A stretch of DNA of 64,000 nt, taken from NCBI RefSeq assembly GCF_027622855.1, contig NZ_JAPZVR010000001.1, positions 28,068 to 92,067 of the forward strand. The letters are read 5' to 3'. This document shows positions 10,187 to 40,767 of this stretch, in pieces (the stretch's first letter is position 1; every line of letters starts with the position of its first letter). Below the pieces are notes generated by a model. That model was not told the DNA's origin, ran no database searches, and saw nothing but the letters and a program-made list of their open reading frames with translations. The position numbers were made by a program, and so were the translations under genes. The stretch comes from Glycomyces algeriensis (GTDB taxonomy: Bacteria; Actinomycetota; Actinomycetes; Mycobacteriales; Micromonosporaceae).

Positions 10187-10906
10187 ATGAGCGGCTTCCC
10201 GGGCGGCACGGCCGTCTCCCTCGTCTCGGTCTACGACTGGCCGACGGTCGACGGCCAGGCGGGCGGCAGCCCCCACCTGCACACCGCGTCCACCGAGGGC
10301 TACGTCGTCGTCGGCGGCACCGGGGCGGTCGAGACCCTCTCGGGGAACGGCTACGAGCGCCACGAGCTCAAGCGCGGGACCGTCCTGTGGTTCACCCCCG
10401 GGACGGTCCACCGCGCGGTCAACGGCTCCGGCGACCTCCAGATCGTCGTGGTCATGCAGAACGCCGGCATCCCCGAGGCCGGGGACGCCGTGTTCACCTT
10501 TCCCGAAGCGACCCTTGCCGACCCGGAGGCCTACCGGGCCGCCGCGACGGCACCGGCCGCCGAAGGGCTCACCGAGAGCGAGCGCGGCGAGGCCACCCGG
10601 GCCCGCCGGGACCTCGCGATCGAGGGCTACCTCGCCCTGCGCGAACGCGTCGGGGCCGAAGGCCCCGCGGCCATGAAGCCCTTGTGGGACAAGGCGGCCC
10701 AGCTCGTCTCGTCCCGCGCGGAGACCTGGCGGCGGATCTGGGCCGCCGGGCCCAGGGCCCAGGCCGACGCGACGGGCGCCCACCTGGACGCCCTCGAGCG
10801 GGCCGACGCGACCCACCTGTGCGACGCCCACGCCGGCAGTGCCGGTGACGCCGTTGCCAAGTGGGGCATGTGCGGACGCCTGGAGACCTGGGACCTGCGC
10901 CCCTGA
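10187..10906 (+). CDS. cupin domain protein
   Basis: A 239-residue protein with one cupin-2 barrel in the first ~100 residues: GSPHLHTASTEGYVVVGGTG carries the two His and the Glu of cupin motif 1, and FTPGTVHRAV carries the His of motif 2, so metal binding is likely. The remaining ~130 residues are helical and unassigned. The ATG lies 2 bases after the DUF6807 stop, so the two are translationally linked. As the last gene of the operon it may isomerise or sense the sugar product; the exact role is unknown. It ends just before a strong hairpin. Confidence 0.75.
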   Translation: MSGFPGGTAVSLVSVYDWPTVDGQAGGSPHLHTASTEGYVVVGGTGAVETLSGNGYERHELKRGTVLWFTPGTVHRAVNGSGDLQIVVVMQNAGIPEAGDAVFTFPEATLADPEAYRAAATAPAAEGLTESERGEATRARRDLAIEGYLALRERVGAEGPAAMKPLWDKAAQLVSSRAETWRRIWAAGPRAQADATGAHLDALERADATHLCDAHAGSAGDAVAKWGMCGRLETWDLRP

Positions 10907-10920
10907 CGCCACTGCGACCA

Positions 10921-10952
10921 GGGCCGGGCATTCCGACAGGAGCGCCCGGCCC
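10921..10952 (+). terminator. hairpin ending the GH3-cupin operon
   Basis: GGGCCGGGC (10921-10929) and GCCCGGCCC (10944-10952) form a perfect 9-bp stem 14 bases after the cupin stop. No T-run follows, as is usual in high-GC actinomycetes. Confidence 0.6.
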
Positions 10953-11064
10953 GCTCGCGTCCCAGGTCCGTCGGCGCCGCAGAAGTCCCCGGGCGCCCCG
11001 CGCCGACCGATGCCTGAGGGTGTGGCTGCGGTTACCATTGCGGCTGGACTTCGAAGGAGCGCAG

Positions 11065-12912
11065 TTGGTCGAGCACAACCCAGCCGAGACCGGGATCATG
11101 ATCGACGCCGCGACCACGGTCGACCGCGACGACGCCATCTGGATCGAGCCCGACGGCGACGGCTTCGACGTCTGGATCCACATCGCCCGGGTCGCCGACC
11201 ACGTCGCGAACGGCGGCAGCGCCGACACCGAGGCCCACCGCCGCGTCCACACCCGCTACCGCCCCGAGCACACCAGGCACATGCTCCCCGCGCCCGTCGT
11301 CGAAGCCGCCTCCCTCGAACCGGGCCGCGAGAACGACACCTTCGCCGTCCACCTCAGACTCGACGCCGCCGGCCACGTGCTCTCCACCGAACTCGGCCCC
11401 GGCCGCCTCGTGCAGTCGTGGATCATGACCCACGGCGAGGCCGCGACCGCCGCGAACGACCCCGCCCACCCGCTCCACGCCACGCTCGCGCTCGCCCTGC
11501 GCTTCGCCCAGACCATGCTCGCCGCCCGCCGCAACGCCGGCGCCCTCGCGTTCTACGACCTCCTCTCCGGCTTCGCCACCAACGAGGAGGGCCAGCTCGT
11601 CCGCCTCGACAGCGCCGAGCGCAACTCCGGCTACATCATCGTGCAGGAGTTCATGATCGCCGCGAACGCGCAGATCGCGGCCTGGGCCGTGCGCGAGGAC
11701 CTCCCGATCCTCTTCCGCAACCACCGCCTCGCCGCCGTCGCCGGCGACCCCGCCGAACTGCGCGCCGAACTCGACTCCATCGCCGCCAGCGGCGACGGCG
11801 CCGCCTTCGAGATGCTCCGCACCCGCATGCGCATGGTCGCCCGCGCCGCCACCTACGGCCCCACCGTGCACGGCCACCACGGCCTCCAACTGCCCGCCTA
11901 CACGCACGCGACCAGCCCGATCCGCCGCTACCCCGACCTCGTCGTCCAGCGCATCCTGCTCGCCGCCGCCCTCGGCCGCCCGAGCCCCTACCCCCTCGAA
12001 GCGCTCAACGACGTCGCCGCGCACGTGAACGAACGCGTCGAGGAGGAGCGCCGCGCCAAGGCCGAGTACTTCAAGCAGAAGGCCCACGCGCAGACCGCGA
12101 GGCACGCCGAGGCCGCCGACTTCACCGCCCTGCCCTACAAGCAGTACGCCCGCGTCCTCCAGTTCGCCGTCGAACGCGGCGAGACCCCCGCCGGGCTCGC
12201 CGCGGACACCGCCCGCCGCCTCGACGCCCGCGAACTCCAGCTCCGCGAGTTCGCCTCCGTCTACCTGTACGGCCGCGGCGATTTCGAGCCGCTGCGCGAG
12301 CGCATGAACCGGATGCTCGCCGACGAGCCCCAGCAGGCCCAGTCGATCGTCAACGTCTACCTCCAGGACCGCCTCGGCGGCCCCGTCAGCAACGAGACGA
12401 ACGTCCTCTGGACCGTCGAGGACGCCCCCGGCTTCGAAGGCCCGCTGTTCTCCGCGCAGGTCTCCATCCGCTACGGCGACAAGCAGGTCGACTCACCGAA
12501 ACGCTTGCAGCGCAACAAGAAGGAAGCCCGCAACCAGGCCGCTCTGGCGCTCGTCGCCGCGCTGGCGGGCCTGCCCGACCCGTCCTCGGACGCGGTCGCC
12601 AAGCCCCGCATCGAGGGCCCGAAGAAGCTCCTCGTGGACGCCGCGGTCAACCCGGCCGAAGCGGTCCAGATCTACGCCGCGCGCGGCCTCGTCAAGCCGC
12701 TCAACTGGGAGTTCTCGGTCGACGGTCCCTCGCACGAGCGGACCTTCACGTGCCGCGCCGAGGGCTGGCTTCCCGCCTCCGGCGAGCGCGTCGCGGCCGA
12801 GGGGAAGGGCCCGACCAAGCAGGTCGCGAAGACCAATGCGGCCCTTGAACTGCGCGTCCACATCGAGGTCGCCCTCGCGCTCGGCGTCGCGGGGCGGCGC
12901 GCGGAGGCCTGA
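11065..12912 (+). CDS. RNB-domain ribonuclease with two C-terminal dsRNA-binding-like segments
   Basis: The first ~330 residues are an RNase II/R catalytic domain. The acidic metal-binding motif is IDAATTVDRDDAIW and the RNA-path motif is THATSPIRRYPDLVVQRIL. The cold-shock domains before RNB and the S1 domain after it, normal for RNase II and R, are absent. Two segments instead resemble dsRNA-binding domain ends: SPKRLQRNKKEARNQAAL near residue 480 and GKGPTKQVAKTNAALEL near residue 575. A processive 3'-5' exonuclease targeted to structured RNA is inferred. The TTG at 11065, with AAGGAG 5 bases before it, is chosen; the frame stays open to 10861, so a longer N-terminus overlapping the cupin gene cannot be excluded. 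Confidence 0.8.
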   Translation: MVEHNPAETGIMIDAATTVDRDDAIWIEPDGDGFDVWIHIARVADHVANGGSADTEAHRRVHTRYRPEHTRHMLPAPVVEAASLEPGRENDTFAVHLRLDAAGHVLSTELGPGRLVQSWIMTHGEAATAANDPAHPLHATLALALRFAQTMLAARRNAGALAFYDLLSGFATNEEGQLVRLDSAERNSGYIIVQEFMIAANAQIAAWAVREDLPILFRNHRLAAVAGDPAELRAELDSIAASGDGAAFEMLRTRMRMVARAATYGPTVHGHHGLQLPAYTHATSPIRRYPDLVVQRILLAAALGRPSPYPLEALNDVAAHVNERVEEERRAKAEYFKQKAHAQTARHAEAADFTALPYKQYARVLQFAVERGETPAGLAADTARRLDARELQLREFASVYLYGRGDFEPLRERMNRMLADEPQQAQSIVNVYLQDRLGGPVSNETNVLWTVEDAPGFEGPLFSAQVSIRYGDKQVDSPKRLQRNKKEARNQAALALVAALAGLPDPSSDAVAKPRIEGPKKLLVDAAVNPAEAVQIYAARGLVKPLNWEFSVDGPSHERTFTCRAEGWLPASGERVAAEGKGPTKQVAKTNAALELRVHIEVALALGVAGRRAEA

Positions 12913-12977: not shown

Positions 12978-14234
12978 GTGCATATTCTCGACGATCTCGC
13001 TTGGCGCGGCCTCATCCAGGACTCCACCGGCATCGACGCTCTCCGCGAGCACATCGACGCGGGCCAGGTGACGTTCTATATCGGTTTCGACCCGACGGCC
13101 CCGAGCCTGCACGTCGGCCACCTCATGCAGCTGATCACCGCCCGCCGCCTCCAGCAGGCCGGGCTGCGGCCCCTGCTGCTCGTCGGCGGCGCGACGGGCC
13201 AGATCGGCGACCCGCGCGAGGTCGGCGAGCGCATCATGAACCCGCCCGAGGTCGTCGCCGGCTGGGTCGAGAAGCTCCGCGCGCAGGTGGCGCCGTTTGT
13301 CACCTACGACGGCGAGAACGGCGCGGTGCCGGTCAACAACCTCGACTGGACCAGCGAGATGGGCGTCGTGGAGTTCCTGCGCGACGTGGGCAAGCACTTC
13401 CCGGTCTCGAAGATGCTCGCCCGCGACGTGGTGAAGAGCCGCCTCGAGTCGGGCATCTCCTTCACGGAGTTCTCCTACCAGCTGCTGCAGTCGAACGACT
13501 TCTACGAGCTCAACCGCCGCCACGGCTGCACCCTCCAGTTCGGAGGGTCGGACCAGTGGGGCAACATCACCGCCGGCGTCGACTTCATCCGCCGCCGCTC
13601 GGGCGCGCACGTCCACGCGTTCGTGAGCCCGCTCGTGACCAAGGCCGACGGCACGAAGTTCGGCAAGAGCGAAGGCGGCGCGGTCTGGCTCGACGCCGAG
13701 CTGACCAGCCCGTACGCGTTCTACCAGTTCTGGGTCAACTCCGGCGACGCCGACGTGGTGCGCTACCTGAAGTGCTTCTCGCTCAAGTCCCACGAGGAGA
13801 TCGAGGAACTGGAGCGGGCGACCGCCGAGAAGCCCGCCGCGCGCCTCGCGCAGAAGGCGCTCGCGGAGGAGCTGACCACGCTGCTGCACGGCGCCGAGGA
13901 GACCGCGCACGTCGTGGCCGCCTCGCAGGCGCTGTTCGGCCGCGGCGAGCTCGCCGAGCTGCCCGAGTCGACGCTGCGCGCCGCGCTCGTCGAGGCCGGC
14001 CTGGCCGAGTTCACCAAGCCGGACGTCACGGTGGCGGAAGCCATGAAGGAGTCCGGCGTGGTCGCGAGCCTGGGCGAGGCCCGCCGCGCCGCGAAGGAGG
14101 GCGGGGCCTACCTGAACAACGTCCGTGTGAGTGATCCTGCGGCCGTTATCGACCCCTCTGACCTGCTTCACGGACGGTACGGAGTGATCCGGCGCGGCAA
14201 GAAGACCGTCGCCGGGTTCGAGGTAGTCGGCTGA
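12978..14234 (+). CDS. tyrS: tyrosyl-tRNA synthetase
   Basis: A 418-residue class I aminoacyl-tRNA synthetase that charges tRNA-Tyr. The HIGH-type motif is HVGHL (residues ~46-50), the KMSKS-type loop is KFGKS, and GGSDQWGNI is the TyrRS substrate-binding signature. A C-terminal S4 RNA-binding domain (residues ~350-418) is present. The GTG start is preceded by GGGGG, and a CACAAT -10-like box lies only 6 bases upstream, so the transcript may be leaderless. The tyrS-to-tlyA neighbourhood order is that of other Actinobacteria, including mycobacteria. No T-box leader is seen. Confidence 0.96.
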   Translation: MHILDDLAWRGLIQDSTGIDALREHIDAGQVTFYIGFDPTAPSLHVGHLMQLITARRLQQAGLRPLLLVGGATGQIGDPREVGERIMNPPEVVAGWVEKLRAQVAPFVTYDGENGAVPVNNLDWTSEMGVVEFLRDVGKHFPVSKMLARDVVKSRLESGISFTEFSYQLLQSNDFYELNRRHGCTLQFGGSDQWGNITAGVDFIRRRSGAHVHAFVSPLVTKADGTKFGKSEGGAVWLDAELTSPYAFYQFWVNSGDADVVRYLKCFSLKSHEEIEELERATAEKPAARLAQKALAEELTTLLHGAEETAHVVAASQALFGRGELAELPESTLRAALVEAGLAEFTKPDVTVAEAMKESGVVASLGEARRAAKEGGAYLNNVRVSDPAAVIDPSDLLHGRYGVIRRGKKTVAGFEVVG

Positions 14235-14283: not shown

Positions 14284-16821
14284 GTGGCTGAAGACGGCCG
14301 CGCCCGCAAGGGTGAAGATGACCGACGAGGCGGCTACGGCCGTCGCGAGGGCGGCGGCTACGGCGACCGTTCAGGCCGCAGCGGCGGGTACAACCGCCAG
14401 GATGGCCGCGGAGACAGCCGGGGCGGCTACGGCCGCAGTGAAGGCCGCGACGACCGCCCGCGGCGCTATGAGGACCGGGACGACCGTCCGCGCCGCGAAG
14501 GCGACGGTGGCCGCAGTGGCGGTTACAACCGTGACGACCGCGGTGGCCGCAGTGGCGGCTACAACCGCGATGACCGGGGCGGCCCGCGCCGCTTCGAGGG
14601 CAACCGTGACGACCGGCCGCGCCGCGATGGCGACAGCCGGGGTGGCGGCTTTAACCGCGACAACCGCAGTGGCGGTTACAACCGCGATGACCGCGGCCCG
14701 CGCCGTGACGGCGACGGTGGCCGCAGCGGCGGTTACAACCGTGACGACCGTGGTGGCCGCAGCGGTGGCTATAACCGCGACGACCGGCCGCGCAGTGGCG
14801 GTTACAACCGTGACGACCGTGGTGGCCGCAGTGGCGGCTACAACCGCGATGACCGGGGCGGCCCGCGCCGCTTCGAAGGCAACCGCGACGACCGTCCCCG
14901 CCGTGACGGCGACGGCGGCCGCAGTGGCGGCTACAGCCGTGACGACCGCGGTGGGCGTAGTGGCGGCTACAGCCGTGACGACCGCGGTGGGCGTAGTGGC
15001 GGCTACAGCCGTGACGACCGTCCGCGCAGTGGCGGGTACAACCGCGATGACCGCGGCCCGCGCCGCGATGGCGACAGCCGTGGCGGCGGCTTCAACCGAG
15101 ACAGCCGCAGTGGTGGCTACAACCGTGACGACCGGGGCGGCCGCAGTGGCGGTTACAACCGTGACGACCGCGGTGGGCGCAGTGGCGGCTACAACCGTGA
15201 CGACCGTCCGCGCAGTGGTGGCTACAACCGCGATGACCGCGGCCCGCGCCGTGACGGCGACGACCGCGGACCGCGTCGCTTCGAAGGCAACCGCGACGAC
15301 CGCCCGCGCCGCGACGGCGACAACCGCAGTGGCGGCTTCAACCGCGACGACCGCGGTCCCCGTCGTTTCGAGGGCAACCGCGACGACCGTCCCCGCCGGG
15401 ACGACGACCGCCCGCGCCGCTTCGAGGACCGGGACGACCGTCCCCGCCGCGATGACGACCGCCCGCGCAGTTTCGAGAACCGCGAGGGCCAGGGGCCGCG
15501 CCGGTTCGAGGGCAACCGCGACGACCGGCCGCGCCGCGACGGCGACGACGGTCCCCGCCGTTTCGAAGGCAACCGGGACGACCGTCCCCGCCGGGACGAC
15601 GACCGTCCGCGCAAGTTCGAGAACCGCGAAGGCCAAGGCCAGCGCCGGTTCGACCGCGACGACCGTCCGCGCCGTGACGACCGGGGCGACGACCGCTTCG
15701 GCCGCGACGGCAAGGAGCGCCGCGGCAAGGACAACCTGCGTCCGCTCGAGGAGCGCGAGGCCGGCCACGAGGGCCCGATCCGCATGGGCGAGTCCGACGA
15801 GGCGCCCGACCTCCCCGAAGGCGTCGAGTACGGCTTCGACCAGCTCGACAAGGAGACCAAGGCCGGGCTGCGCAGCTTGAACAAGCAGCTCGCCGAGGCC
15901 GTCGGCAACCGGCTCCTCGCCGCTGCCGCGCTCCTCGCCGAGGACGACATCGAAGGCGCGCTCGAGCAGGCCCGCTACGCCCGCCGCAAGGCGTCCCGCG
16001 TGGCCGTGGTCCGCGAGGTCACCGGTGTGGCCGCGTACGGCGCCGAGGAGTGGCAGCTGGCCGTCAACGAGCTGCGCGCCGCGCAGCGCCTGGGCGGCAC
16101 GCACGACCACGTGGCGCTCATCGCCGACTGCGAACGCGCCCTTGGGCACCCGGAGCGTGCGATCGACCTCTACCGCGAGTTCGGCAGTGACGAGAGCGTC
16201 GACCCCGAAGTCCGGGTCGAGCTGCTCATCGTCGCCTCCGGCGCCCGCCGCGACATGGGCATGGGCGAGGCCGCGACCGCGATGCTGAAGGTCGGCGGGC
16301 TCAACTCGCCGAAGACCGAGCCGTGGGTCGCCCGCCTCCGCTACGCCTACGCCGAGGGCCTGCTGGCCGACGGCCGCGAAGACGAAGCCCGCGAATGGCT
16401 CTCGAAGGCGGTCGCCGCCGACGAGACCGGCGAGACCGGCGCCGCCGAGCGCCTGCTCGAGCTCGAGGGCATCGTCGTCGAGGAGTACGACGAGGACGAC
16501 GAGTTCGAAGACGACGAGGAATTCGACGACGAAGACGACCTCGACGAGGACGACGAAGACGATGACCTCGAAGACGACGAGGACGACGACCTCGAGGACG
16601 AGGGCGACGACTACGACGACGAAGACGACGACTTCGACGACGACGAAGATGAAGACTTCGAGGACGACGAGGAGTCCGAGTCCGACGTCGAGGACGACGT
16701 GAGGACCGAGACGACGCCCGCGCCGCCTTCGACCACTCCGTTCGCGACGCCGGCGTCCCCGAGCGCCGGGTCGGCCCCTGACGCTGAGGAGTCAAATGAC
16801 CCGACTGAAAGGCGCGCCTGA
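14284..16821 (+). CDS. RG-repeat / TPR-like / acidic-tail protein
   Basis: An 845-residue, three-part protein. Residues ~1-490 are low-complexity Arg/Gly/Asp repeats such as GGYNRDDRGGRS and RRFEGNRDDRPRRDG, certainly disordered. Residues ~500-730 are a helical repeat domain resembling the TPR-containing actinobacterial protein found after tyrS (Rv1691 in M. tuberculosis by position). Residues ~734-800 are almost pure Asp/Glu, then a Pro/Thr-rich end. The RG region could bind RNA and the acid tail could fold back on it; both are inferences. GTG start with GGGGAG upstream. The last 26 bases overlap the next gene. The repeat region seems far longer than in relatives I can recall. Confidence 0.85.
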   Translation: MAEDGRARKGEDDRRGGYGRREGGGYGDRSGRSGGYNRQDGRGDSRGGYGRSEGRDDRPRRYEDRDDRPRREGDGGRSGGYNRDDRGGRSGGYNRDDRGGPRRFEGNRDDRPRRDGDSRGGGFNRDNRSGGYNRDDRGPRRDGDGGRSGGYNRDDRGGRSGGYNRDDRPRSGGYNRDDRGGRSGGYNRDDRGGPRRFEGNRDDRPRRDGDGGRSGGYSRDDRGGRSGGYSRDDRGGRSGGYSRDDRPRSGGYNRDDRGPRRDGDSRGGGFNRDSRSGGYNRDDRGGRSGGYNRDDRGGRSGGYNRDDRPRSGGYNRDDRGPRRDGDDRGPRRFEGNRDDRPRRDGDNRSGGFNRDDRGPRRFEGNRDDRPRRDDDRPRRFEDRDDRPRRDDDRPRSFENREGQGPRRFEGNRDDRPRRDGDDGPRRFEGNRDDRPRRDDDRPRKFENREGQGQRRFDRDDRPRRDDRGDDRFGRDGKERRGKDNLRPLEEREAGHEGPIRMGESDEAPDLPEGVEYGFDQLDKETKAGLRSLNKQLAEAVGNRLLAAAALLAEDDIEGALEQARYARRKASRVAVVREVTGVAAYGAEEWQLAVNELRAAQRLGGTHDHVALIADCERALGHPERAIDLYREFGSDESVDPEVRVELLIVASGARRDMGMGEAATAMLKVGGLNSPKTEPWVARLRYAYAEGLLADGREDEAREWLSKAVAADETGETGAAERLLELEGIVVEEYDEDDEFEDDEEFDDEDDLDEDDEDDDLEDDEDDDLEDEGDDYDDEDDDFDDDEDEDFEDDEESESDVEDDVRTETTPAPPSTTPFATPASPSAGSAPDAEESNDPTERRA
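14380..15680 (+). repeat. in-frame degenerate tandem repeats encoding RG-rich units
   Basis: Units of about 36-39 bases coding for (R)SGGYNRDDRGG and related ~14-residue RRFEGNRDDRPRRDG units recur for 1.3 kb. Third-position differences between copies (ggttacaaccg, ggctacaaccg, ggctataaccg) show purifying selection on the protein, while near-identical neighbouring copies (about 14930-15010) point to recent duplication. The bias also opens long shadow frames on both strands. Confidence 0.85.
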
Positions 16822-17830
16822 GGCTCTCGCCGGCGCTTACGACCAAGCGCTGCTCGACCTCGACGGTGTCGTCTACCTGCTCAGTCAGCCGATCCCGGAA
16901 GCGGCCGCGACCCTCGCGGCCCTTCCGGGGCTCGACTGCGACCCGGTGTTCGTCACCAACAACGCCTCCCGGAGCCCGGAAGTCGTAGCCGAGGCCCTGC
17001 GCGTCATGGACATCCCGGCCGAGGAGTCCCAGGTGCTCACCTCGGCCCAGGTGGTGGCCGAGATCCTGCGCGAGCGCCTCGGCGAGGGCGGCCTGGTCCT
17101 CGTGGCCGGTTCGGAGGCGCTGCGCGCCGCCGTGGAGTCCCAGGGCCTGGTCGCGACGACCGATCCCAAAGCGGCCCAAGGCATCGGCTACGGCATGATC
17201 CCGTCGATGACGTGGCGGGACCTCGCGGACCTGACCATCGCCGCCCGCAACGGGGCCCTCTGGGTCGCGACGAACCTCGACGCCACCCTGCCCACACCGG
17301 ACGGTCCGCTGCCCGGCACGGGCGCTCTGGCGGGCGCGATCTCCACGGCGCTGGGCCGCGGCCCCGACGTCGTGGCCGGGAAGCCCGAGCCGGGGATCTA
17401 CCGGTCCGCGCTGGCGCGCAAGCCCGGCGCCCGCGCGGTCATGGTCGGCGACCGGCCGGACTCGGACATCGAGGGCGCCAACCGGGCGGGGATCGACTCG
17501 CTGCTGGTGTTCACCGGTGTCGCCACGCCGCGACTGGCGCTGGCGCTGCCGCCCGAGCAGCGGCCGACGTACCTCGGCTGGAGCCTCGCGGCGCTGACCG
17601 AGCCGCACCCGGAGCCCGACTGGAACGATGCGGTGGACCGCATCGAGTGCGGCGGTTGGTCGGCGACCTTGGAGGGCAAGGAGATCCGTCTCCGCGGCGA
17701 GGGCGCCGACCTCGACGCGTGGCGGGCGCTCTGCGAGTTGAGCTGGGCCGCAGCCGATATGGCCGGCTACGACCCCGCCACGGCGCCGGTCCCGGAGGGC
17801 GCGGCGGCGGAGAAGCTCCTGTCGCTGTAA
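16796..17830 (+). CDS. HAD-superfamily phosphatase, NagD/glycerol-3-phosphate phosphatase type
   Basis: A 344-residue HAD hydrolase. Motif I DLDGVVYL holds the Asp nucleophile, VFVTNNASRSPEVVAE is the type-IIA cap entry, and KPEPGIY with MVGDRPDSDIEGA gives motifs III and IV. By family and position (between the TPR-like protein and tlyA) it corresponds to Rv1692, described as a glycerol-3-phosphate phosphatase in membrane lipid recycling. The last ~90 residues are an extra C-terminal domain. GAGGAG sits 5 bases before the ATG, which overlaps the upstream gene by 26 bases, so translational coupling is likely. Confidence 0.88.
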   Translation: MTRLKGAPEALAGAYDQALLDLDGVVYLLSQPIPEAAATLAALPGLDCDPVFVTNNASRSPEVVAEALRVMDIPAEESQVLTSAQVVAEILRERLGEGGLVLVAGSEALRAAVESQGLVATTDPKAAQGIGYGMIPSMTWRDLADLTIAARNGALWVATNLDATLPTPDGPLPGTGALAGAISTALGRGPDVVAGKPEPGIYRSALARKPGARAVMVGDRPDSDIEGANRAGIDSLLVFTGVATPRLALALPPEQRPTYLGWSLAALTEPHPEPDWNDAVDRIECGGWSATLEGKEIRLRGEGADLDAWRALCELSWAAADMAGYDPATAPVPEGAAAEKLLSL

Positions 17831-17929: not shown

Positions 17930-18277
17930 TTAGTCGACCTTGAGGGCCTTGCGCAGCTTGGCGAGGTCCTTCACGGAGGCCTTGATCTTGATCTTGCCGG
18001 TCAGGATCGCCTTGGCGGGCTTGAGTTCCTTCTTCGACAGGGCGATCAGGTCGTCGGAGCCGATCAGGATGCGCACCTCGGCGTCGGCGGCGTCGCCGTC
18101 GAGCAGGTCGGTGAGCTTGTTGCCGGCGAGCTTGGCGCTGAAGGTCTGGCCCAGGTCGGTGATCTCAACGGCCAGCGTGCGCTCGAAGCCCTCTTCGAGC
18201 TCGAGCTCGTCGGACTTCCTGGCGACCTTGCCCGCCATCTTCTCCAGCACATTGCGGCATTCGTCAACAGTGGCCAT
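17930..18277 (-). CDS. SCP2 sterol-binding-domain protein (copy 1)
   Basis: A 115-residue, stand-alone SCP2-fold protein. It begins MATVDECRNVLEKMAGK and has the SCP2 core strands FSAKLAGNKLTDLLDGD and AEVRILIGSDDLIALSKKEL, then the ILTGKIKIKASVKDLAKLRK end. The fold forms a hydrophobic tunnel for lipids or acyl-CoA; the ligand in bacteria is usually unknown. GGAGG lies 7 bases before the ATG. It is paralogous to the next minus-strand gene (18502-18840), which shares the MAT(V/I)DECR start and K(I)K(I/A) end. A -10-like TGTAAT lies on its strand at 18328-18333. Confidence 0.82.
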   Translation of the reverse strand: MATVDECRNVLEKMAGKVARKSDELELEEGFERTLAVEITDLGQTFSAKLAGNKLTDLLDGDAADAEVRILIGSDDLIALSKKELKPAKAILTGKIKIKASVKDLAKLRKALKVD

Positions 18278-18501: not shown

Positions 18502-18840
18502 CTACAGCACGCCGCGAAGCTTCATGAGGTCCATCATGTTCGCCTTGATCTTGACCTGGCCCCCGGTGAAGGCCTTCATGAAGTCGAGTTCGCCGGCGAC
18601 GAGCTTGAGCAGGTTGTCCGAGGCGACGATCATGCGGATCTCCGCGTCGGGGTTGTCGCCGTCGGTGATGCCGGTCAGCTTGCCCTGGTCGAACTTGCCG
18701 TTGAACGACACCGAGAGGTCGGTGATGTCGGCGGCGAGCGAGCGCTGGAAGCCCTGGAGCTTGCGCACCGACTTCGGGTTCGAGGAGAGGTTCTCCGCGA
18801 ACTGCTCGAGTGCGGTCCGGCATTCGTCGATGGTGGCCAT
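18502..18840 (-). CDS. SCP2 sterol-binding-domain protein (copy 2)
   Basis: A 112-residue paralogue of the protein encoded at 17930-18277. It starts MATIDECRTALEQFAEN, keeps the central VSFNGKFDQGKLTGITDGD and AEIRMIVASDNLLKLVAGEL strands and ends QVKIKANMMDLMKLRGVL. The gene has its own AGGAGGG site and is separated from its twin by 224 bases containing a hairpin, so the pair looks like an old tandem duplication under separate promoters. As with copy 1, lipid or acyl-group binding is expected from the fold and not proven. Confidence 0.82.
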   Translation of the reverse strand: MATIDECRTALEQFAENLSSNPKSVRKLQGFQRSLAADITDLSVSFNGKFDQGKLTGITDGDNPDAEIRMIVASDNLLKLVAGELDFMKAFTGGQVKIKANMMDLMKLRGVL

Positions 18841-19677: not shown

Positions 19678-20462
<785 letters not shown>

Positions 20463-20466
<4 letters not shown>

Positions 20467-39785: not shown

Positions 39786-40712
39786 ATGAGCAGTGTGGAC
39801 AGCAACGACAAATGGGCGGCCTTGCGGGGCGCCGCGCAGATGCCTCCCGCTGACCCCGACAGTGATCTCTCCTCGCCCGATCCCGAGGCCTACACGAACA
39901 AGCGCGAGATCCCGCAGCCCCAGCCGCTGGAACGCCACGGCCCGGCCCGCGTCATCGCCATGGCCAACCAGAAGGGCGGGGTGGGCAAGACCACCACGAC
40001 CATCAACCTTGGTGCGGCCCTTGCCGAATACGGCCGCAAGGTGCTCATGGTCGACTTCGACCCGCAGGGCGCGCTCTCGGTCGGCTTCGGCACCAACCCC
40101 CACACCCTCGACCTCACCGTCTACAACCTCCTCATGCAGGACGACGTCGACATCGACGACGTCATGGTCAAGACGAACGTCGCGGGCCTGCGCCTCCTCC
40201 CGGCCAACATCGACCTCTCGGCCGCGGAGATCCAGCTCGTCAACGAGGTCGCCCGCGAGCAGACCCTCGCCCGCGTCCTGCGGCCGGTCATCCCCGACTT
40301 CGACTACATCCTCATCGACTGCCAGCCCTCCCTGGGGCTCTTGACGATCAACGCGCTCACCGCCGCGCACTCCGTGCTCGTCCCGCTCGAGTGCGAGTTC
40401 TTCTCGCTGCGCGGCGTCGCCCTCCTCCTCGACACCGTCGACAAGGTCCGCGAGCGCCTCAACTACGACCTCGAGCTCGACGGCATCCTCGCGACCATGT
40501 ACGACTCGCGCACCACGCACTCGCGCCAGGTCCTCCAGCGCGTCGTGGAAGCCTTCGGCGACAAGGTGTTCTCCACCGTCATCACCCGCACCGTGCGCTT
40601 CCCCGAGACCACCGTCGCCGGCGAGCCCATCACCACCTGGGCCCCCGCCTCCTCCGGCGCGCGGGCCTACCGCCAGCTCGCCCGCGAACTCATCGCGGCG
40701 ACCGACAAGTGA
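39786..40712 (+). CDS. ParA/Soj family ATPase
   Basis: A 308-residue deviant Walker A ATPase. KGGVGKTTTTINLGAALAEY is the deviant P-loop; VDFDPQGALSVGFG and LIDCQPSLGLLTINAL follow. An extra ~55-residue N-terminal tail is Pro- and Asp-rich. It is not paired with a ParB here but with ScpA and ScpB, as in Rv1708-Rv1710, so it probably works with the condensin in chromosome organisation and is not the main origin-segregation ParA. TACACT upstream (near 39705) may be a -10 box. The stop codon lies inside the first copy of a 14-bp tandem repeat. Confidence 0.9.
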   Translation: MSSVDSNDKWAALRGAAQMPPADPDSDLSSPDPEAYTNKREIPQPQPLERHGPARVIAMANQKGGVGKTTTTINLGAALAEYGRKVLMVDFDPQGALSVGFGTNPHTLDLTVYNLLMQDDVDIDDVMVKTNVAGLRLLPANIDLSAAEIQLVNEVAREQTLARVLRPVIPDFDYILIDCQPSLGLLTINALTAAHSVLVPLECEFFSLRGVALLLDTVDKVRERLNYDLELDGILATMYDSRTTHSRQVLQRVVEAFGDKVFSTVITRTVRFPETTVAGEPITTWAPASSGARAYRQLARELIAATDK

Positions 40713-40767
40713 TCACCGACAGGTGGGCACCGAGAAGTGAGCACCGAGAAGTGGGCACCGACAAATA
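40706..40767 (+). repeat. four tandem 14-bp repeats spanning the parA-like stop codon
   Basis: CAAGTGATCACCGA (40706-40719), CAGGTGGGCACCGA, GAAGTGAGCACCGA and GAAGTGGGCACCGA (to 40761) stand head to tail, followed by a partial copy CAAATA. The core is AAGTGNGCACCGA. The first unit contains the parA stop. It could be a protein-binding iteron or simple slippage. Confidence 0.85.

Follow-up and report, generated by a model that had tools for sequence, protein, structure and literature searches.

A gene for a protein of 845 residues, here called X, was analysed in a stretch of 64,000 nt from contig NZ_JAPZVR010000001.1 of Glycomyces algeriensis (hereafter the window). The core of X is nearly universal in the class Actinomycetes, and in most complete genomes of the class the gene stands downstream of the 5S gene of a ribosomal RNA (rRNA) operon. 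The reading that we prefer, with a probability of about 0.45, is that an ancestral actinobacterial rRNA operon had X as its trailing protein gene (16S-23S-5S-X) and that the product of X acts in rRNA or ribosome production. The anatomy of X and its rRNA linkage are firm. An earlier description of this gene, made from its letters alone (the sequence-only reading), was partly confirmed in what it observed and partly supported in how it interpreted it. The three-part layout that it had proposed, with a low-complexity arm, a folded helical scaffold and an acidic tail in a single protein, was borne out by composition and by a structural model. The parts are as follows.

14284..16821, + strand: open reading frame of protein X (open reading frame list), with a GTG start and a Shine-Dalgarno-like site (ribosome-binding-site-like score 5/6)
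14284..15735, + strand: arginine-rich mixed-charge (R/D/G) N-terminal repeat, residues 1 to about 485 (composition, dipeptides, tandem repeats, charge mixing, codon-position spectrum)
15736..16470, + strand: linker and TPR-like helical core, the conserved family domain, residues about 485-729 (AlphaFold2, Foldseek, genome counts)
16471..16668, + strand: poly-acidic tail, residues 730-795 (composition; lineage-specific)

Linkage of X to rRNA operons

Of 394 genomes of the class, 359 carried the X core, and so did 63 of the 149 genomes in a phylum sample that included 12 class members; it was mostly present as a single copy. Matches outside the class were weaker, with E values from 1e-29 to 1e-4. 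Core identity was 83-98% to 20 Glycomyces records and at most 50% to the other records in the same list. The own genome showed a weak core-like match on its contig 33 (L002, E 9e-4), and no second copy of the arm was found in it at E 0.001.

Linkage was counted in 61 complete genomes of the class, which represent 14 families and 23 genera and carry 63 X copies; distances to 5S in this set run to the X core. X was located less than 5 kb downstream of a co-oriented 5S gene in 57 of these genomes and less than 6 kb downstream in 59. The first count gave 58 X copies in 56 genomes within 5 kb of a same-strand 5S, and G258 (224 nt) was added to make 57. The 5S gene was farther upstream in G232 (5.7 kb) and G100 (5.6 kb). 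By a hand estimate, a 5S less than 5 kb upstream of X would be expected by chance in under one genome. Where a genome had a single 5S match, X stood behind that 5S in 16 of 18 cases, 13 of them from one family (f28). An RNA-related setting for X, as the sequence-only reading had it, is independently borne out by this linkage.

Across the 129 loci where the X start was readable and a 5S was present, the distance between the two had a median of 129 nt; it was at most 200 nt in 104 and more than 500 nt in 10. A same-strand 5S lay upstream of X in 134 of 218 loci. Of the 84 others, 41 were cut by a contig end, and 20 of the remaining 43 were the window copy and Glycomyces records. Only L095, L172, L155 and L161 had at least 1 kb of upstream sequence without 5S, and in the source genome of L172 (G232) the 5S is the one at 5.7 kb. 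Rfam searches on the loci of 14 relatives identified rRNA genes upstream of X in 13, all co-oriented, and none in L172; among the 13, the rRNA of L218 was 2.3 kb away and several stretches ended before 16S. Outside the class, where 51 genomes had a match, 10 were checked, and seven had a 5S at most 3 kb upstream of X (G422, G440, G497, G414, G439, G468 and G401; X matches weak in G422 and G497). As for the other three, the 5S was 12 kb away in G408, none was near in G467, and G462 starts at a contig end.

The typical gene order was tyrS-16S-23S-5S-X-HAD-tlyA, where HAD is a HAD-IIA family hydrolase gene. Twenty stretches of about 17-20 kb were fetched, and the full order was present in seven (L221, L223, L224, L227, L228, L235 and L237). 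Overall, 18 of the stretches had 5S before X, 15 had tyrS, 17 HAD and 11 tlyA. HAD was inverted in L230 and L236 and was not found in the fetched stretches L222, L226 and L231. Whole 16S-23S-5S sets were identified by Rfam in L225, L230, L236 and L239. Among the literature matches listed, X was not described as an rRNA-operon gene; an excerpt of one paper shows that the position of mycobacterial rrnB downstream of tyrS was already known (PMC10218544).

The main rival explanation is that X is a passenger in an old frozen piece of chromosome, tyrS-rrn-X-HAD-tlyA, in which case its scaffold would work elsewhere and its arm would be a solubility or spacing element. We regard this as a real possibility that we would not ourselves expect to hold. 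The frequent retention of tyrS, HAD and tlyA in the 20 stretches is what this rival would predict. It accords less well with the duplications seen in three genomes of one genus (G104, G279 and G026). Here two operons share a block of 6.7-6.9 kb that is 99.1-99.5% identical and contains 16S-23S-5S (Rfam, G104 and G026). The block begins 28-188 nt after the TyrS match, where tyrS flanks it; its end falls 7-9 nt beyond the stop codon of X in G104 and G279 and 23-26 nt short of it in G026. The block takes in X, and tyrS, HAD and tlyA lie outside it; of the two copies in G026, one is bordered by tyrS and the second by HAD. G228 also belongs to this genus and has a contig that starts within a second copy of X (94% identity across 280 nt); a repeat that continues through X would produce such a contig start. 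G036 belongs to a different family; it has two copies of X, each downstream of a 5S gene of its own, at 280 and 288 nt. It also counts against a mere passenger that tyrS was not found near operon-linked X in the stretches L220, L229, L236, L238 and L239 (in L236 and L239 X lies 5.6-5.7 kb behind the operon). Co-oriented adjacency to 5S and duplication, which together mark an rRNA-operon cistron, were both found for the X family; the Glycomyces window does not have this combination.

The spacer between 5S and X was then a further point of comparison. A strong hairpin was present in 100 of 112 spacers and in none of 112 shuffled spacers, and in the 34 shown it lay 4-12 nt after 5S. Its role could be that of a leaky terminator or of a processing signal. 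In form it was often GGGCCACC-loop-GGTGGCCC, a few nucleotides downstream of 5S (L241-L246; 112 spacers), with the T-run weak or missing in several lineages. The distance from hairpin to X start was at most 50 nt in 28 of the 100 and at most 30 nt in eight, three of which (L118, L121 and L127, 0-5 nt) may have a wrong start. In L144, L171 and L148 the hairpin is separated from the start by 21-25 nt, most of which is filled by T-rich letters and a ribosome-binding site, so that a promoter would have little room. Such very short spacing in part of the lineages again speaks against the passenger, and from it we infer that transcription of rRNA would read through into X in the short-spacer lineages.

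Composition and evolution of the arm

The repeat of X (residues 1-485) contained 28.7% R, 19.6% D, 22.3% G and 0.8% K, with D and E together at 23%. Its net charge was +30 over 485 residues, or +0.06 per residue. The sequence-only reading had described basic RG repeats. The dipeptides RG (21 against 31.1 +/- 4.2 in shuffled sequences) and GR (17 against 30.9 +/- 4.2) were both rarer than expected, as was RR, and since RG and GR fell below the shuffled mean the classification of the arm as an RG domain was given up. Taken by itself, RGG was enriched (13 against 6.6 +/- 2.2), so that some RGG flavour is real. The basic character was not confirmed. The dipeptides in excess were RD (40 against 27.3), DR (37 against 27.3) and DD (37 against 18.3), and GG, GY and YN were also commoner than in shuffles. 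The approximate kappa of the repeat was 0.043, against 0.141 +/- 0.021 in shuffles, and the charges are well mixed. The X repeat is therefore an arginine-enriched mixed-charge (R/D) polyampholyte that is nearly charge-balanced, and the arm is presumably disordered.

RGG/RG domains such as those of nucleolin, GAR1 and FUS resemble the arm in being rich in Arg and Gly, with 13 RGG and aromatic residues between in X. They are defined by motif enrichment and net positive charge; in the X arm, in contrast, RG and GR lie under the shuffled mean, Asp amounts to two thirds of Arg, and net charge is near zero. RNase E of Caulobacter, known from bacterial ribonucleoprotein bodies (BR-bodies), is likewise bacterial, has a disordered arm that carries charge, and belongs to an RNA setting. 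Unlike it, X has no nuclease domain, and X is known from sequence, not from condensates.

Tandem Repeats Finder gave 14 rows in the X repeat with nine distinct periods from 18 to 186 nt, every one a multiple of 3. When in-frame repeat windows were compared, differences at codon positions 1, 2 and 3 numbered 1643, 1785 and 5015, the third about three times each of the others; the windows were picked by DNA identity and overlap, so that the 1,236 pairs are not independent. The claim that repeat copies vary silently and that the protein sequence is selected is upheld by this excess, and the repeat is under selection at the protein level. Third-position guanine plus cytosine (GC) content was 0.80 in the repeat (14284-15735) and 0.95 in the core, as if codons had been varied to curb repeat instability at the DNA level.

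To compare arms, 219 orthologue rows were collected. Before composition was counted, 47 were dropped (46 cut by a contig end, and L001, a copy of the window), leaving 172, and six with extensions under 60 residues, among them the genuinely short L128, L212 and L165, were left out to give 166. These 166 include about 22 residues of core edge, which the charge and kappa statistics exclude for extensions of at least 83 residues. Net charge was calculated for 162 (four with unread bases left out) and kappa for the 126 with extensions of at least 150 residues. The automatic selection put some starts in the wrong place; L173 and L143 seem to be artefacts, and the starts of L118, L121 and L127 are possibly wrong as well. 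The GC value of the L073 locus (0.45) was not used, as it probably reflects unread bases.

Nearly all orthologues with a readable start had an Arg-rich extension of very variable length and tight charge balance. The comparison of repeat lengths in relatives that the sequence-only reading had called for gave 71-820 residues with a median of 310 (n=166). Extensions of this kind had been thought rare in bacteria; within the X family that does not hold, since 86 of the 166 complete orthologues reach at least 300 residues. R content was 0.13-0.37 (median 0.27), with medians of 0.01 for K and 0.22 for D and E. The arginine-enriched, lysine-poor, D/E-balanced low-complexity composition of arginine-enriched mixed-charge domains (R-MCDs) was thus found in the X repeat and in the 166 orthologues. 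RG occurred 0-46 times per extension. Orthologues that lack RG and keep their function had been named as evidence that would tell against the reading: RG is absent, with the core kept, from L128 and from three of the 166 longer extensions, a comparison that covers the core and not the function. Short extensions also occur, in L176 (about 18 residues), L128 (39), L212 (41) and L165 (54). The acidic tail, with a net charge of -53 across 66 residues in X (residues 730-795), is lineage-specific: 100 of 166 orthologues had a tail of at least 40 residues with at least 25% acidic residues, and in 29 it was under 12 residues.

Mean net charge per residue in the 162 orthologues was +0.090 with a standard deviation (SD) of 0.033 and no negative values. 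When acidic content was re-dealt among orthologues the SD was 0.088 (the minimum of 2,000 trials being 0.076). In the subset from the genome search (96, L081 onward) the mean was +0.102, with an SD of 0.037 against 0.073 shuffled. As the orthologues are related and hence not independent, these net-charge figures are descriptive and should not be read as probabilities. For every one of the 126 orthologues with a kappa value, the charges were mixed better than in shuffles of the same extension.

These figures bear on the idea that the arm arose by slippage in GC-rich DNA and has no function. Arm length does vary about 3-fold within Glycomyces (170 to 545 residues), and R content correlates weakly with GC across the 166 orthologues (rho 0.30), as neutral growth would allow. 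The concentration of copy differences at third codon positions and a charge balance far tighter than chance argue against it, as does the retention of an Arg-rich arm at loci of 47-53% GC, though K rises to 0.10-0.12 in two of these. Neutral repeat growth is already disfavoured, and we consider it very improbable.

R-MCDs have been studied in the human proteins SNRNP70 and NELFE (excerpts of PMC9324279). Like them, the X arm is long and of low complexity, with R over K, D/E-balanced, slightly positive and with R and D adjacent; it differs in being bacterial, in being also G-rich with Y, N and P, and in being joined to a TPR core and an rRNA operon, and it is known from sequence alone. An alternative built on this likeness is that the arm is mainly an R-MCD and that X gathers near rRNA genes or RNA polymerase in a nucleolus-like zone, modulated by the acidic tail. 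The excess of Arg over Lys and the slightly positive charge agree with this, as raising net charge per residue up to +0.2 increased incorporation of R/D domains into speckles (PMC9324279, same excerpts). The charge pattern does not: the sequence-only reading had seen in X an ideal design for phase separation, and in the excerpted part of the human study alternating, well-mixed R/D peptides alone did not phase-separate, whereas blocky ones did (PMC9324279). With a kappa of 0.043 the X charges are very well mixed, and the phase-separation claim is accordingly left open and not supported. In addition, the arm is down to about 40-100 residues in several lineages and the acidic tail is short or absent in many. 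Among the literature matches listed, there was no paper on X forming condensates or going to a membraneless body. Condensation of X is possible, is not favoured by the charge pattern, and appears unlikely as its main role.

The helical core and the Glycomyces locus

An AlphaFold2 model of the X core, made from 41 aligned cores, was all-helical and arranged in helix pairs, with a mean predicted local distance difference test score (pLDDT) of 91.9. Foldseek searches with the model gave designed TPRs (CTPR) and YrrB as best matches, and also MamA and Rap-type TPR proteins, all at low sequence identity; five matches had E of at most 0.001, and all were generic TPR. Pfam TPR models on the core stayed below their gathering cut-offs (best TPR_14, 16.4 bits against 23.5). 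The modelled repeated antiparallel helix pairs, the Foldseek matches and the sub-threshold Pfam scores agree with the TPR-like core noted earlier. The predicted core would be a helical-hairpin solenoid like members of the TPR superfamily, and differs from them in its sub-threshold Pfam scores, its gene position behind rRNA and the lack of a sequence-related entry among solved structures in the PDB, where the single sequence gave one chance-level match (E 0.35) and the profile none. The NCBIfam PrsT and HemY-type TPR identities were rejected, as their scores were far under the cut-offs.

In the window the neighbours of X are the following.

12978..14234, + strand: tyrS, 49 nt upstream of X; in many relatives the rRNA operon lies between
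16796..17830, + strand: HAD-IIA family hydrolase gene, downstream neighbour, overlapping the 3' end of X if the first ATG is the start
19678..20466, + strand: tlyA, a member of the rRNA methyltransferase family that belongs to the conserved block

This order, tyrS-X-HAD-tlyA, is that of the Rv1691-type block tyrS-(rrn)-X-HAD-tlyA. No rRNA was found in the 64-kb window, and the four 5S genes of the own genome sit on other contigs. In 19 of 20 Glycomyces records the TyrS match ended 52-61 nt before X with no 5S between; L017 was cut off. G095 (L237), which belongs to the same family as Glycomyces, has kept the operon between tyrS and X, and therefore the operon was, most simply, lost at the Glycomyces site after the family arose.

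Just upstream of tyrS (10861-12912) lies a fusion of an RNB (RNase II/R) exoribonuclease with a double-stranded-RNA-binding motif, present at 19 of 20 Glycomyces loci. Two neighbouring, mutually similar small proteins are encoded on the opposite strand at 17930-18277 and 18502-18840, with relatives downstream of X in L229, L237, L238 and L239; judged by eye, they may be SCP2-like. Elsewhere in the window, a 14-base unit ACCGACAAGTGAGC forms a tandem array of 4.6 copies (40701-40764).

Proposed role of X

Rv1691 and its M. smegmatis orthologue MSMEG_3754, a TPR protein of unknown function, are probably orthologues of X, to judge from gene order and not from sequence comparison: they occupy the same place before the HAD gene and tlyA. 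Rv1691 is placed in the lprJ-recN gene run with tlyA in an excerpt of PMC3072309. According to an excerpt of PMC7092591, MSMEG_3754 was picked from among the high-confidence proteins of a pull-down with the RNA polymerase beta subunit, and the FLAG-tagged protein recovered no DNA. That listing would also suit condensation near the polymerase. MSMEG_3754 is among the ClpC1 partners listed in an excerpt of PMC10433963, which could be general protein turnover and would fit the passenger. The long arm, the phylum-wide rRNA linkage and the co-duplication are not described in the excerpted accounts of Rv1691 and MSMEG_3754.

Under the reading of X as an rRNA-operon gene, at least some of the X mRNA in part of the lineages would come from polymerases that continue beyond the post-5S hairpin, so that X output would follow rRNA output. 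The arm could touch rRNA or pre-ribosomes weakly and at many points close to the polymerase as it transcribes, and the TPR core could hold a protein partner. Through read-through, arm contacts and core partner, X would take part in producing or folding rRNA or in assembling ribosomes. At the Glycomyces site, where the operon was lost, X is presumably transcribed with tyrS.

Several observations weigh against this reading. The median distance from hairpin to start codon is 74 nt, so that many lineages have room for an X promoter of their own. By a stricter test (hairpin and T-run), terminator-like sites are present in 78 of 112 spacers, as the passenger explanation would have it. X persists without the operon in Glycomyces and also in G082 (L233) and G306 (L234), whose stretches have no rRNA (one 5S match each), and this too favours the passenger; both keep tyrS-X-HAD-tlyA with no rRNA between, and their loss of the operon was separate from the Glycomyces one. 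L231 (G354) has 23S and 5S, with no 16S found by Rfam. L232 (G124) has an isolated 5S (10798-10914) between tyrS and X, perhaps a remnant of operon loss, and neither 16S nor 23S in its 20-kb stretch. Genomes with several operons, six-operon ones included, usually have X at just one. Clean co-duplication is limited to one genus and perhaps one event, and conserved order can persist without shared function, as for tyrS, HAD and tlyA. The pull-down list in the excerpt of PMC7092591 holds 275 proteins and is a weak clue, and RNA-binding, transcript, knock-out or localisation data were not found for any member of the X family.

A bolder form of the reading, which we hold to be doubtful, is that actinobacterial rRNA operons ancestrally had a fourth gene, for a scaffold with a eukaryote-like R mixed-charge arm. 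Leaky transcription beyond 5S would keep the supply of this scaffold in step with rRNA; the scaffold would collect pre-rRNA as it emerges, together with assembly factors, where the operon is transcribed, in the manner of a nucleolus, and may itself tune read-through at the post-5S hairpin.

Among actinobacteria the X protein is nearly universal and uncharacterised, and its gene is tied to rRNA genes. Its approximately 160 arms, ranging from about 40 to 800 residues at a nearly fixed charge balance, form a natural series for what long mixed-charge arms do in bacteria. X is thus a concrete, testable candidate for ribosome production in the phylum that includes Streptomyces, Corynebacterium and Mycobacterium.

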